From a virus: DNA of 43,002 nt. A model generated the notes under the pieces. The model was not told where the DNA came from, did not search any database, and worked only from the letters and a program-made list of their open reading frames with translations. Made by a program: the position numbers and the translations under genes. The stretch lies in the IMG/VR virus record IMGVR_UViG_3300021961_000197, positions 1 through 43,002 of that record, one strand, 5' to 3'. Of the stretch, positions 25,227-29,444 are shown one piece after another (the first letter of the stretch is position 1; each line of letters begins with the position of its first letter).

Positions 25227-26475
25227 AACTAGAGCGCACGCTACACTCGGGGCTTCGTCTTCTAAGAGGTGGATGAACTGCCCCGGGAGCGTGCAGCTGT
25301 CCGCCCAGTTTCCGGACACCACGAGCTCGTACGCTATTGAGGGCACGCTCGCTCATGGGTTGGGGGAGCACGTGCTGGCCACGCGTTTGCTGGGCGCAGA
25401 AGGAGAGGACTCAGTGTTCGCTCTCGTCGGGCAAGAAATTTCGATAGACGGCGTAACGGGTGTCGTAACTGAGGGCATGGCTGCCGCCGTGAATGAGTTT
25501 GTAAACACGGTCGAAGACTATTATCGCGCCTATGCTGCGGATCATACGCACACGAGCTTGTACCTCGAGGAGCGTTTTGACCTTAGTCCACTCGGCCCGC
25601 CGGCTCCGATGTTCGGGACCGCTGACGTCGTAATCTGGGCCGAAGATCATCTCCACGTGATTGATTATAAGCACGGGCAGGGGGTTGTGGTTGAGGCGAC
25701 CGAGAACAGCCAGTTAATGTATTACGCTCTCGGCGCCGCGGTCGCTGCGGGCAGGATCCCGCAGACTATCGCGGTGACGATTGTCCAACCCCGGGCCCAG
25801 CACAGTGACGGCCCCGTACGTACGTACGTGTTCGACCGCACGCGTCTGGTGGAGTTCAAGAAAGAACTTTTTGAGGCCGCTAGACTTACTCAAACGAGCG
25901 ACCCCGCGCTCAATCCTGGCTCGTGGTGCAGGTTCTGTAAAGCCACGGCCGTATGCCCCGCGCAGATGAAGCAAGCGGAGAGCGTAGCCATGACCGTGTT
26001 CGCGGACGACAGAAAGCCCACCCAGCCACCCGCGCCGTCCGTTCTTTGCGACGAGGATATTGCTAAAGTACTAGCGCGCGGGTCGGAGGTGATGCAGTGG
26101 ATCCGGGACGTTGAGGCGTACGCGCTGGCACGGATGGAGAACGGTTACGAGATCCCGGGCTACAAGCTGGTGCGGGGACGGTCGAACCGAGTTTGGATTG
26201 ACGAGGAAAAAGCGTCCCGCTATCTTGGCCGGAACGGTGTGAAGGCCGAGGACCGGTACACCAAAAAGCTTGTAAGCCCGAACGCAGCGGAGAAACTTCT
26301 CAAAGCCAAAGGAGGTGACACCCAAGCACTAGAAAAGTATTGGGAGAAGCCGGAGGGCGCGGCCAAGATAGCACCGGTCGCTGACTCCCGACCCGCACTG
26401 CCCCCGGCAGCACAACGGATCTTCGGACTCCCCGAAGAACTAAAACACGACAGCATCGAGAGCATCGAAAAATGA
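25219..26475 (+). CDS. DUF2800 nuclease with Fe-S cluster signature
   Basis: 418 aa, ATG at 25219, GAGGAGG nine nt upstream. A PD-(D/E)XK core is seen as EGTLAHGLGEHV (E41), GTADVVIW (D136) and VIDYKHGQG (D149, K151). Four cysteines, C21 (NCPGS) and C237, C240, C246 (WCRFCKATAVC), are arranged like the 4Fe-4S clasp of AddB/Cas4-type nucleases. This is the layout of DUF2800 (PF10926), which in phages sits next to DUF2815 and DNA polymerase. Probable role: exonuclease in recombination or replication. Confidence 0.85.
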   Translation: MSETRAHATLGASSSKRWMNCPGSVQLSAQFPDTTSSYAIEGTLAHGLGEHVLATRLLGAEGEDSVFALVGQEISIDGVTGVVTEGMAAAVNEFVNTVEDYYRAYAADHTHTSLYLEERFDLSPLGPPAPMFGTADVVIWAEDHLHVIDYKHGQGVVVEATENSQLMYYALGAAVAAGRIPQTIAVTIVQPRAQHSDGPVRTYVFDRTRLVEFKKELFEAARLTQTSDPALNPGSWCRFCKATAVCPAQMKQAESVAMTVFADDRKPTQPPAPSVLCDEDIAKVLARGSEVMQWIRDVEAYALARMENGYEIPGYKLVRGRSNRVWIDEEKASRYLGRNGVKAEDRYTKKLVSPNAAEKLLKAKGGDTQALEKYWEKPEGAAKIAPVADSRPALPPAAQRIFGLPEELKHDSIESIEK

Positions 26476-27089
26476 GCAACACGACAGTCATTACCCCGGT
26501 CGGGCGCCTTAGCTACCCGCACCTCTTCACCCCGCAGGACCCGATGAACGACGGCGAGGAAGGCAAGTACGGGGCCGCCATCGTTTTCGAGGAAGGGACG
26601 GATCTTTCCGAGCTCAAGGCCGCTATCGCTGGCGCCGCTACCAGTTTTTTTGGAGCGGAGCAGGCCAAGAAGCTGATGGCCGCGGGCAAGCTCCGCCTCC
26701 CGCTCCGGGAGGACGGCGAGGATAAGGGCTACCCAGAGAACTCTGTGTTCTTCAACGCCCGTACCAAGAACCGTCCGAGCACCGTGTCGCGGTACATCGA
26801 CCCGGCCACGGGAAACATGCGAGTTATCACCGACCCGAGTGAGCTGTACCCAGGCTGCTATGTGAAGATGCAAGTCTCTGCATACGGCTACGACGTGAAG
26901 GGCAACAAGGGCGTGGCGTTCGGTCTTAACCACGTCCTGAAATACGATGACGGCGAGCGCCTCGACGGGCGCACCAACGCGACCTCAGTGTTCAGCACGG
27001 ACGCTGTTGCGCCAAAGGAAGTGGACCTGTCCGACATGGATCGGCCCACCCACGTGGACGACGACGCGGACTTGTCGGCGTTCATGTAG
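26472..27089 (+). CDS. ssDNA-binding protein, DUF2815 / Enc34-like
   Basis: 205 aa, ATG at 26472 (ATGA overlap). N-terminal GRLSYPHLFTPQDP and KYGAAIVFEEG, later YPGCYVKMQVSAYGYD and GVAFGLNHVLKYDDGERL are characteristic of the DUF2815 family (OB-fold, T7 gp2.5-like). An acidic C-terminal tail (HVDDDADLSAFM) with a terminal aromatic residue is the usual partner-binding end. It coats ssDNA during replication by the polymerase and helicase that follow. Confidence 0.88.
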   Translation: MSNTTVITPVGRLSYPHLFTPQDPMNDGEEGKYGAAIVFEEGTDLSELKAAIAGAATSFFGAEQAKKLMAAGKLRLPLREDGEDKGYPENSVFFNARTKNRPSTVSRYIDPATGNMRVITDPSELYPGCYVKMQVSAYGYDVKGNKGVAFGLNHVLKYDDGERLDGRTNATSVFSTDAVAPKEVDLSDMDRPTHVDDDADLSAFM

Positions 27090-27097
27090 CACCCGGT

Positions 27098-27123
27098 GGC
27101 CCGGTCCCTTCGGGGGCCGGGCC
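27098..27123 (+). other. Very stable UUCG-capped hairpin upstream of the tmRNA-like gene
   Basis: Eleven-base arms (27098-27108 and 27113-27123), one G-T pair, closed by a TTCG tetraloop on a C-G pair. It starts 8 nt after the preceding stop and ends 6 nt before the RNA gene. No T-run follows, so it is not a typical terminator; it may protect the mRNA 3' end or guide processing. Confidence 0.7.
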
Positions 27124-27129
27124 CCACCC

Positions 27130-27207
27130 GGGGGTGAGAAAGGTTTCGACACTTTGAAAGCCGCACGCGGCCCAGAGTGGACCACGGTTCGAGTCCGTGC
27201 ACCTCCA
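27130..27207 (+). ncRNA. Minimal tmRNA-like RNA: tRNA-like domain without mRNA-like domain
   Basis: Seen: a 7-bp acceptor stem GGGGGTG (27130-27136) with CACCTCC (27200-27206), the third pair G-T (G3-U70, the alanine identity pair), discriminator A27207. A 14-nt segment ends in GGTTTCGAC (27142-27150), the tmRNA D-loop signature. A 7-bp helix 27150-27156 / 27173-27179 sits where tmRNA has P2, then an AAA/C bulge and a GCCG-CACG-CGGC cap. GGAC (27179-27182) leads into a T arm (CACGG, TTCGAGT, CCGTG; 27183-27199). Compared from memory with E. coli ssrA, the segment lengths 5' of P2 (14 nt) and the GGAC junction agree. No CCA is encoded. No anticodon arm can be drawn, so it is not an ordinary tRNA. 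Predicted to be charged with alanine and to bind SmpB; these are inferences. Confidence 0.8.
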
Positions 27208-27230: not shown

Positions 27231-29444
27231 ATGTTTGTCTCCATTGATTTTGAGACTCGCTCCACCGCCGACCTCCGTAAGGTTGGCGTTTATGTCTACG
27301 CGGAGCACCATAGCACAGACATTCTTTGTATGTGCTACAGTTTCGAGGGCGAGAGCGCGGTCCACACGTGGGTCCCCGGGGGCACTCTCGACGCGGACGA
27401 CCTCCGGCTGCTCCAGCACGTACGCGCCGGTGGTGTACTGCGCGCCTGGAATAGCGGCTTCGAGTACGCAATATGGAACGCGGTCCTCGCGCTCCAGCAT
27501 GATTGGCCCCCCACCGATGTCACGCAGTGGGTTGACACGGCCGCCGAGGCCGCCGCTATGGCTCTGCCTCGTTCTCTCGGCGCCGCCGCCAAGGCACTCG
27601 GGATGGACGAGGAGAAGGACGACGAGGGCCACCGACTTATGATGAAGATGGCCCGGCCCCGGGCCGTGGGTGCGTGGTGGGTTGGAGAGTACGGGCCCTA
27701 TGCTACAAAGGCCGAGGCCGAAGTCCGCCGTCGTACTCTCCGCCTTTACGAGAAGACTGAGCCCGTGAGGGACGAAGACACCGTGGTCTGGTGGAACGAT
27801 AGTATCATGCTCCGCCGGCTCATTGACTACTGCGAGCAGGACGTTCGCACGGAGAAGGCCATCGCCCGCAAGCTCCGGGAGCTCATGCCCGCCGAGCGGG
27901 CGGTCTTTCTTATGACGCAGCGCATGAACGACCGCGGCGTCCCGGTAGACACGGACCTCGTCGAGGCCGCGAAGGATATGCTCGACGTAGCTATGGACGA
28001 GGCGAACGCCAGGATATCGGAGATCACTGGGGGCGTGGTCACGGGCGTCACCAAGGTCAGTGACCTACGGGAGTGGGTCGCGGCCCGCGAGCCCGGGCTC
28101 GGACTCGAGGACCTGCGGAAGGACACCGTCCGGGACATCCTGAACGACCTGGGTGGTGACCTACAGCCGGAGGTGCGTGAGGTCCTCCAGCTCCGACAGG
28201 ACGCCGGGAAGACCTCTACGGCGAAGCTGGACGCGTTCCTGCGCTGCACGGGAGTGGACGGTAGGGCCCGGGGCCTCTTGATGTACCACGGGGCCTCTAC
28301 GGGCCGCTGGGCGGGCCGGCTGGTCCAGCCCCAGAACTTCCCTCGACCAGAGGTCAGGGACGTCGAGCAGTATATACCGCTCGTGCTGGCCCGCGACTAC
28401 GATGGCCTGAAGGCCACGGGGGTCTCCGTTCCCGTTCTTATTTCGTCTATGCTGCGGTCTATGTTCCGGGCGGAGCCGGGTTCGGTCTTCATGGCCGCGG
28501 ACTTCTCGCAGGTCGAAGCCCGGGTCCTCGCGTGGATCGCGGGGCAAGACGACCTCGTCGAGCTCTTCCGCACGGGCGGCAAGATCTACGAGACCATGGC
28601 CTCGTACATCTTCAAGGTCCCGGTGGACGAGATCGGGAAGGACAGCTTCGAGCGCCAGATCGGAAAGAACTCCGTGCTCGGCGCGGGCTTCCAGATGGGG
28701 GCCGACCGGTTCGCGGAGCAGGTAAGGGAGCAGACGGGGATCACCCTCGACCGGGGCGGCATCTTCGCCACCTGCTTCTCCTGCCGCTATCAGGAGCGGG
28801 TGAAGGACTACATGATCGGCTTTGGTACCTGCTGGCGGTGTGGGAAGAACACTGTCGAGTGTGACACCATGGAGGACATGGCCGCTAAGGCCATCAACGG
28901 GTACCGGACCCTCTACTCAAAGATCCCCGCGTTCTGGGAAGGCATCAACGCCGCGGCCATCAAGGCCACGACAACGCCCGGAAAGACGTTCGATGTGGGC
29001 GCAAGCCCGACCCCCATCCGGTTCAGCGTCCGGGGAGAGTTCCTTTGGTGCCGGCTCCCGTCCGGTAGGTTCCTCGCGTACGCCAAGCCGGAGGTCATGG
29101 ACCGGTCTCTGCCCGCGCCGTACGAGCACGTAGTGAAGCCCGCGTTGGGGTACGTGGGCGTGGACTCGATGACCGGGAAGTGGCGCCGGCACTGGACTTA
29201 CGGTGGGCATTTGACCGAGAACGTGGTCCAGGCCATGGCCCGCGACCTACTCGCCGGGGCGATGCTCCGCTTGAGGAGAGAAGGGTACGCACCTATCTTG
29301 ACCGTCCACGATGAGGTTATCACCGAAACCAAACCGAACGCGAGCTTCGAGAGATTCATGCAGCTAGTCACCATCGTCCCCAAGTGGGCCGAGGGATTGC
29401 CCCTCGCCGGCGAGGGCTGGACAGGAGAAAGGTACCGTAAATGA
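27231..29444 (+). CDS. DNA polymerase, family A, with 3'-5' exonuclease and zinc-ribbon insert
   Basis: 737 aa, ATG at 27231. Exonuclease: SIDFETRS (D6, E8), AWNSGFEYA (N73) and YCEQDVRTEKA (Y200, D204). Polymerase: motif A AADFSQVEAR (D424), motif B RQIGKNSVLGAGFQMG (R476, K479), motif C TVHDEV (H693, D694, E695). The residue matching E. coli Pol I Phe762 is Leu483. Between motifs B and C an insertion with C515, C518, C534, C537 and a nearby C544 should bind zinc. This is the replicative polymerase; it works with the ssDNA-binding protein and the primase-helicase. Confidence 0.93.
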   Translation: MFVSIDFETRSTADLRKVGVYVYAEHHSTDILCMCYSFEGESAVHTWVPGGTLDADDLRLLQHVRAGGVLRAWNSGFEYAIWNAVLALQHDWPPTDVTQWVDTAAEAAAMALPRSLGAAAKALGMDEEKDDEGHRLMMKMARPRAVGAWWVGEYGPYATKAEAEVRRRTLRLYEKTEPVRDEDTVVWWNDSIMLRRLIDYCEQDVRTEKAIARKLRELMPAERAVFLMTQRMNDRGVPVDTDLVEAAKDMLDVAMDEANARISEITGGVVTGVTKVSDLREWVAAREPGLGLEDLRKDTVRDILNDLGGDLQPEVREVLQLRQDAGKTSTAKLDAFLRCTGVDGRARGLLMYHGASTGRWAGRLVQPQNFPRPEVRDVEQYIPLVLARDYDGLKATGVSVPVLISSMLRSMFRAEPGSVFMAADFSQVEARVLAWIAGQDDLVELFRTGGKIYETMASYIFKVPVDEIGKDSFERQIGKNSVLGAGFQMGADRFAEQVREQTGITLDRGGIFATCFSCRYQERVKDYMIGFGTCWRCGKNTVECDTMEDMAAKAINGYRTLYSKIPAFWEGINAAAIKATTTPGKTFDVGASPTPIRFSVRGEFLWCRLPSGRFLAYAKPEVMDRSLPAPYEHVVKPALGYVGVDSMTGKWRRHWTYGGHLTENVVQAMARDLLAGAMLRLRREGYAPILTVHDEVITETKPNASFERFMQLVTIVPKWAEGLPLAGEGWTGERYRK

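Follow-up and report, generated by a model that had tools for sequence, protein, structure and literature searches.

A conserved viral tmRNA reduced to its tRNA-like domain probably interferes with host ribosome rescue

Known tmRNAs without a message part

Bacteria rely on tmRNA to release ribosomes that have become stuck. It has been reported that the tRNA-like domain (TLD) of tmRNA is charged by AlaRS and bound by EF-Tu and SmpB, and that its alanine then receives the nascent chain (PMC8012679). Among phages, the tmRNA of Mycobacterium phage DS6A (tmID 11587) is listed as "TLD only" (PMC4131195) and is also named in PMC11915505, and it is the sole phage case named in these two papers. PMC4131195, citing Mao 2009, states that tmRNA is strongly inhibited by a molecule like that of DS6A, chargeable or not; as cited in PMC11915505, this inhibition was in E. 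coli. The tmRNA database of 2025 holds 97,179 sequences, of which nine are standard-form tmRNAs without a tag frame, with DS6A as the named phage example (PMC11915505). An earlier survey of phage tmRNAs used ARAGORN (PMC9004378) and is not expected to have seen TLD-only genes, because ARAGORN misses nearly all members of the family described below. In organelles, message-less mitochondrial tmRNAs (RF02544; jakobids, oomycetes) and the ~65-bp plastid forms of Mallomonadaceae have kept the TLD and lost the message part.

The window analysed here is a stretch of 43,002 nucleotides of viral DNA (IMG/VR record IMGVR_UViG_3300021961_000197), and it contains one RNA gene of the same reduced kind. The window RNA has a complete TLD in standard order, no CDS and a phage origin, as in the "standard, no CDS" type of DS6A, to which it is likened by description. 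The first-pass annotation, which knew of no established phage case, was mistaken on this point, and with the DS6A precedent a TLD-only phage tmRNA is an already known kind. Mitochondrial message-less tmRNAs usually derive from permuted organelle genes, whereas the window RNA is one unbroken virus gene. No literature on a wider TLD-only family was found in the searches made; as far as searched, the family's breadth and the invariance of its alanine identity are new, with at least 165 distinct TLD-only genes collected here compared with the nine standard-form tag-less entries of the 2025 database.

Structure of the 78-nt RNA gene

As shown in Table 1, the gene encodes a complete tmRNA TLD, and the mRNA-like domain is absent. 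Its 78 nt read, in order, GGGGGTG-AGAAA-GGTTTCGAC-ACTTTG-AAA-GCCGCACGCGGCC-CAGAGT-GGAC-CACGG-TTCGAGT-CCGTG-CACCTCC-A. The acceptor stem of 7 bp carries G3-U70 and is followed by A73; a 5-nt spacer separates its 5′ strand from the D-loop signature; P2 has 7 bp, including one G-U; and a central 4-bp hairpin, which holds the recurrent CCGCAYGCGG motif, caps P2 where the mRNA-like domain would be. CCA is not encoded, the bases after A73 being GTC. The minimum free energy (MFE) fold of the 78 nt recovers the acceptor stem, P2, the central hairpin and the T arm (z -2.2), and the folding energy is equalled by just 5 of 200 shuffles. The first-pass annotation had listed the acceptor stem with G3-U70 and A73, the D-loop with its spacer, P2, GGAC and the T arm, all of which are present where it had placed them; its view that a 4-bp hairpin replaces the message part agrees both with the MFE fold and with the alignment to RF00023, in which ~310 message-part positions of the model are deleted.

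Table 1. Features of the RNA gene and its neighbourhood in the window
Feature	Position	Strand	Evidence or remark
Upstream gene, ssDNA-binding protein (Enc34 type, PHROG 112)	26472..27089	+	
Strong G+C-rich hairpin just 5′ of the RNA	27095..27125	+	putative processing or transcription signal
TLD-only tmRNA gene	27130..27207	+	A73 = 27207; RF00023 49.8 and 52.6 bits; model R1 64.0 bits, E 2.6e-15; MFE fold
Acceptor stem 5′ strand GGGGGTG	27130..27136	+	G3 = 27132; pairs with 27200-27206
D-loop signature GGTTTCGAC	27142..27150	+	sequence; final C of the motif is the first base of P2
P2 5′ strand CACTTTG	27150..27156	+	MFE fold; P2 covariation in relatives
Central hairpin GCCG-CACG-CGGC	27160..27171	+	MFE fold; conserved and covarying in relatives
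P2 3′ strand CAGAGTG	27173..27179	+	MFE fold
GGAC junction	27179..27182	+	sequence
T arm CACGG-TTCGAGT-CCGTG (5-bp stem)	27183..27199	+	sequence; MFE fold; RF00023 match
Acceptor stem 3′ strand CACCTCC	27200..27206	+	U70 = 27204; sequence; MFE fold; RF00023 match
Downstream gene, family A DNA polymerase	27231..29444	+	

Assignment to the tmRNA class

When a 97-nt piece was scanned, the gene matched the tmRNA model RF00023 at 49.8 bits against a gathering score of 47, over model positions 1-371, and a separate search gave 52.6 bits. Routine scans returned less: ARAGORN found nothing in the window; Rfam at the gathering threshold gave no match over the whole window, the tmRNA match being lost to filters; and in a lax Rfam scan of a 301-nt piece it was lost again, the sole listing being a weak permuted-tmRNA match. 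A second measure was a covariance model, R1, for which 34 other sequences were used, each differing in spacer length from the window gene, which was itself excluded; it places the gene at 64.0 bits (66.2 bits with filters off), and its runner-up within the window reaches 11.7 bits.

Several identities can be set aside. A chance fold is ruled out by the R1 score and the covariation of the relatives. The G3-U70 and A73 identity and the T arm are common to tRNA-Ala and the window RNA, but the latter has no anticodon arm, and its D-loop and GGAC junction are tmRNA-specific; ARAGORN reports no tRNA, and tmRNA is the top match of its clan, lower clan matches being dropped. A permuted or two-piece tmRNA (RF04321) scores 17.1 bits against a cut-off of 47, and the acceptor strands stand in the standard order. 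The Infernal scan with Rfam and custom models suggested in the first-pass annotation thus returns tmRNA rather than tRNA. Full-length tmRNA (RF00023), of ~270-360 nt, has the acceptor stem with G3-U70 and A73, the D-loop (GGNTTCGAC), GGAC, the T arm and P2 in common with the window RNA, whose score lies above the cut-off, whereas the resume codon, tag frame, stop codon and pseudoknots are absent from its 78 nt. The window RNA belongs to tmRNA by covariance score, yet without one defining half.

Distribution of the family

The TLD-only tmRNA is a large virus-borne family. With the region as query, a distant BLAST search matched Streptomyces phages LuckySocke and GiJojo (74% identity); in the former the site falls within a tRNA array, in a gap that carries no annotation, and in the latter it lies beneath a doubtful ORF. 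The annotated "hypothetical protein" over the TLD-only gene of GiJojo (gene 44; L002 2499-2741) is probably no real gene, and the same holds for the one that overlaps the TLD-only gene of Stenotrophomonas phage Jojan60 (L211 2001-2080).

Three patterns were then used. The first, in which the D-loop, GGAC and T-loop were fixed and positions 3, 70, 73 and P2 were left free, gave at least 120 stretches in viral sequences, and 118 of the 120 listed pass the acceptor and T-stem checks; among the matches listed, G3-U70 and A73 are present in all 99 distinct sequences, neither being imposed, and CCA directly follows A73 in 23 of the 99. The second, for the D-loop variant GGATTCGAC, imposes neither position 70 nor A73 and gave 28 further viral stretches, each of which reaches 45.5 bits or more with the family model. 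In the third, the D-loop and the 5′ acceptor strand were free while T70 and A73 were imposed; all 86 distinct sequences have a perfect 7-bp acceptor stem beginning GGG, hence G3, and the free D-loop is mostly GGNNTCGAC, with rare departures. In total, the scans yielded at least 165 distinct sequences in at least 240 loci, nearly all viral, with G3-U70 and A73 in 165/165 distinct sequences among the matches listed. Contigs of bacteria and archaea, 257 billion bases in all, yielded 47 pattern matches, of which six pass, and at least two of these six are on phage-like contigs beside phage head or terminase genes. Besides LuckySocke, GiJojo and Jojan60, named carriers include Streptomyces phages pSt2308, BRock and Shaeky.

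A phage-encoded SmpB was found in none of 54 TLD-carrying records, several of them fragments, by a search that was positive in 10 of 14 control genomes; a full-length tmRNA was likewise found in none of the 54, every tmRNA match above the cut-off being TLD-sized (several records being fragments). The phages whose records are complete would therefore have to rely on host factors. Two different TLD-only genes (L043 6175-6254 and L069 8192-8271) lie far from each other on a single viral contig of 136 kb; their central hairpins differ and both still pair. In four 64-65-nt forms (L086, L098, L119, L152), the central hairpin is gone too, and a small loop closes P2.

Conservation and covariation

P2, the acceptor stem and the T stem covary strongly in the relatives. 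Among the 34 aligned members, both sides change in 18 of 23 pairs (paired cells 95% versus 70% in shuffles; covariation score 0.655 versus 0.152), so that the compensatory changes in P2 and the acceptor stem for which the first-pass annotation had proposed to look are found. In P2, which was never a filter, the first two pairs that vary remain paired in 97-99% of the sequences compared with 42-48% when shuffled, and the second of them is G-C, A-U, C-G, G-U, U-A or U-G in 98-99% of sequences. Acceptor pairs 1-3 are invariant, and pairs 4-6 vary freely, with compensation. Since G3-U70 could turn into G-C or A-U and still pair, its invariance most plausibly reflects selection for alanine identity, and together with the free variation elsewhere it points to selection for a charged RNA. 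The covariance scores, the compensatory changes and the conservation across viruses strongly support the identity first proposed, namely a TLD-reduced phage tmRNA rather than a product of random decay.

Homologues keep the P2, T and acceptor pairing, with Alone3 and Riptide as rare exceptions. The flanks of the gene in Streptomyces phage Alone3 (L209 1501-1577) and in LuckySocke (L001 2501-2578) are 98-100% identical while the TLD genes are only 81% identical; the Alone3 allele is partly broken, its D-loop being altered and its P2 and T stem containing mismatches, and it seems replaced or mosaic, which could reflect allele exchange, escape or inactivation. The variant of Streptomyces phage Riptide (L212 1477-1553) has an intact acceptor stem, P2 and T arm, with GGTTAGAT as its D-loop and TGAA in place of the GGAC junction. 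LuckySocke, GiJojo and contig L021 carry identical 78-nt genes between flanks whose similarity is at the shuffled baseline.

Genomic setting

The window is a tailed-phage contig with portal, SU10-type capsid, scaffold, terminase and tail fibre genes; its replication side comprises, in order, exonucleases, a SNF2 helicase, the ssDNA-binding protein, the RNA, the family A polymerase and a primase. The polymerase likely starts at ATG 27231, because the longer GTG start at 27177 falls within the RNA. The hairpin upstream is very stable, has a TTCG loop and no U tract, and ends 4 nt before the RNA; it is a possible processing or termination signal. No sigma-70-type promoter was found near the RNA.

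The nearest named relatives of the window are Sinorhizobium phage phiM5 and uncultured Manatee Spring phages, with protein identities of 35-46%; close relatives of its DNA polymerase were not found in the viral contigs searched. In phiM5, an exonuclease, DUF2815 and the polymerase stand in similar order with no TLD between them, and four distant relatives (MW202496, phiM5, MW202879, MW202711) gave no convincing TLD, the best match scoring 19.2 bits. Given the broken alleles such as that of Alone3 and the absence of the gene from phiM5, the TLD is dispensable in some phages, a point that weighs against the function proposed below. Elsewhere the gene lies in tRNA arrays (several Streptomyces phages), beside the DNA primase gene (Jojan60), or near genes for the major head protein, a head protease or a helicase, and it looks like an accessory gene that has been acquired or moved repeatedly.

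Proposed function and rival explanations

The reading that we favour on balance is that the window encodes a functional TLD-only tmRNA which competes with the host tmRNA and inhibits trans-translation. We infer that it is transcribed and charged, that it binds SmpB and the ribosome and that the net effect is inhibition, as follows. The RNA would be transcribed along with the early replication genes, trimmed in the manner of a tRNA and given its CCA; host AlaRS would charge it with alanine, and host SmpB and EF-Tu would bind it; the charged TLD would then compete against the host tmRNA at stalled ribosomes, and the nascent chain would be accepted on its alanine with no template at hand. Because the RNA has no resume codon or tag frame and thus offers no template, no degradation tag would be added, and normal trans-translation would be inhibited during infection. 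A decoy that does no more than titrate SmpB would need no alanine identity, so the invariance of this identity counts for a natural RNA that acts in its charged form at the ribosome and not merely by titrating SmpB. The first-pass proposal that the RNA blocks, mimics or bypasses host trans-translation would fit, by analogy, the published experiment with the DS6A-like molecule. For the family as a whole, we put forward more tentatively that it may be a widespread and virus-specific charged anti-trans-translation agent, in which alanyl-TLD and host SmpB capture nascent chains on stalled ribosomes without offering a template. Phages would thereby stop ssrA tagging, or convert it to the addition of alanine or to release without a tag, as a general means of takeover or counter-defence.

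The main rival to inhibition of host tagging by competition is an untagged minimal rescue factor, in which the charged TLD and host SmpB take the nascent chain at stalled ribosomes and these dissociate or the chain is hydrolysed without a tag; this would free ribosomes for the phage and spare truncated phage proteins from proteolysis, as has been proposed for message-less mitochondrial tmRNAs. The strict alanine identity, which implies that the charged RNA is used for transpeptidation, would suit such a factor, as would the persistence of CDS-less mitochondrial tmRNAs alongside SmpB (PMC11915505); however, the RNA offers no hint of a later release of the ribosome, and the only test of a similar RNA found, as cited in PMC4131195, reports inhibition, so that we consider untagged rescue rather unlikely, if a serious competitor. 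It is less probable again that the RNA mimics a tRNA for a purpose away from the ribosome, for instance to sequester AlaRS, EF-Tu or SmpB, or to mark where the operon transcript is processed. Its place within tRNA arrays in several Streptomyces phages and the strong hairpin adjoining the 5′ end of the window RNA speak for a mimic, but the tmRNA-specific D-loop, GGAC and P2 are conserved beyond the needs of AlaRS or RNase P, and the gene occurs in settings as different as tRNA arrays, head-gene regions and replication-gene regions.

That the gene is the decayed fossil of a full phage tmRNA is very improbable. Full tmRNAs are known in other Streptomyces phages, for example Forrest (tag ANSNFALAA), and the Alone3 and Riptide alleles have damaged D-loops; against this stand the compensatory changes throughout the P2, acceptor and T arms and the identical genes between unrelated flanks, which refute decay for the family, while for the window the intact pairing and the 64-bit score argue against it. 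Certain phages are known to use attB sites overlapping the host tmRNA gene for their integration (PMC10865867), and a fragment of attP from a phage integrating in host ssrA is the least credible of these explanations: an att core would copy the 3′ end only, and the presence and covariation of the 5′ acceptor strand, the D-loop and the capped P2 contradict it. As isolated Streptomyces phages already carry the gene, it can be tested directly whether attack on bacterial ribosome rescue, or its rewiring, is common among phages.

Other RNA elements in the records searched

Microbacterium phage Dismas (L215 739-827) carries an unannotated 89-nt TLD-like element that scores 31.6 bits with R1 and has G3-U70, A73 and a T arm, although its D-loop is aberrant and its central hairpin long; records of the Dismas group gave similar matches. 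A permuted tmRNA (RF04321, 75.8 bits) that is absent from the annotation of the record was found in Caulobacter phage CcrSC (L213 1491-1796). The Rfam RNA motifs RAGATH-24 (L098 9494-9696) and DUF3800-VIII (L055 796-867) occur on contigs with TLD-only genes.
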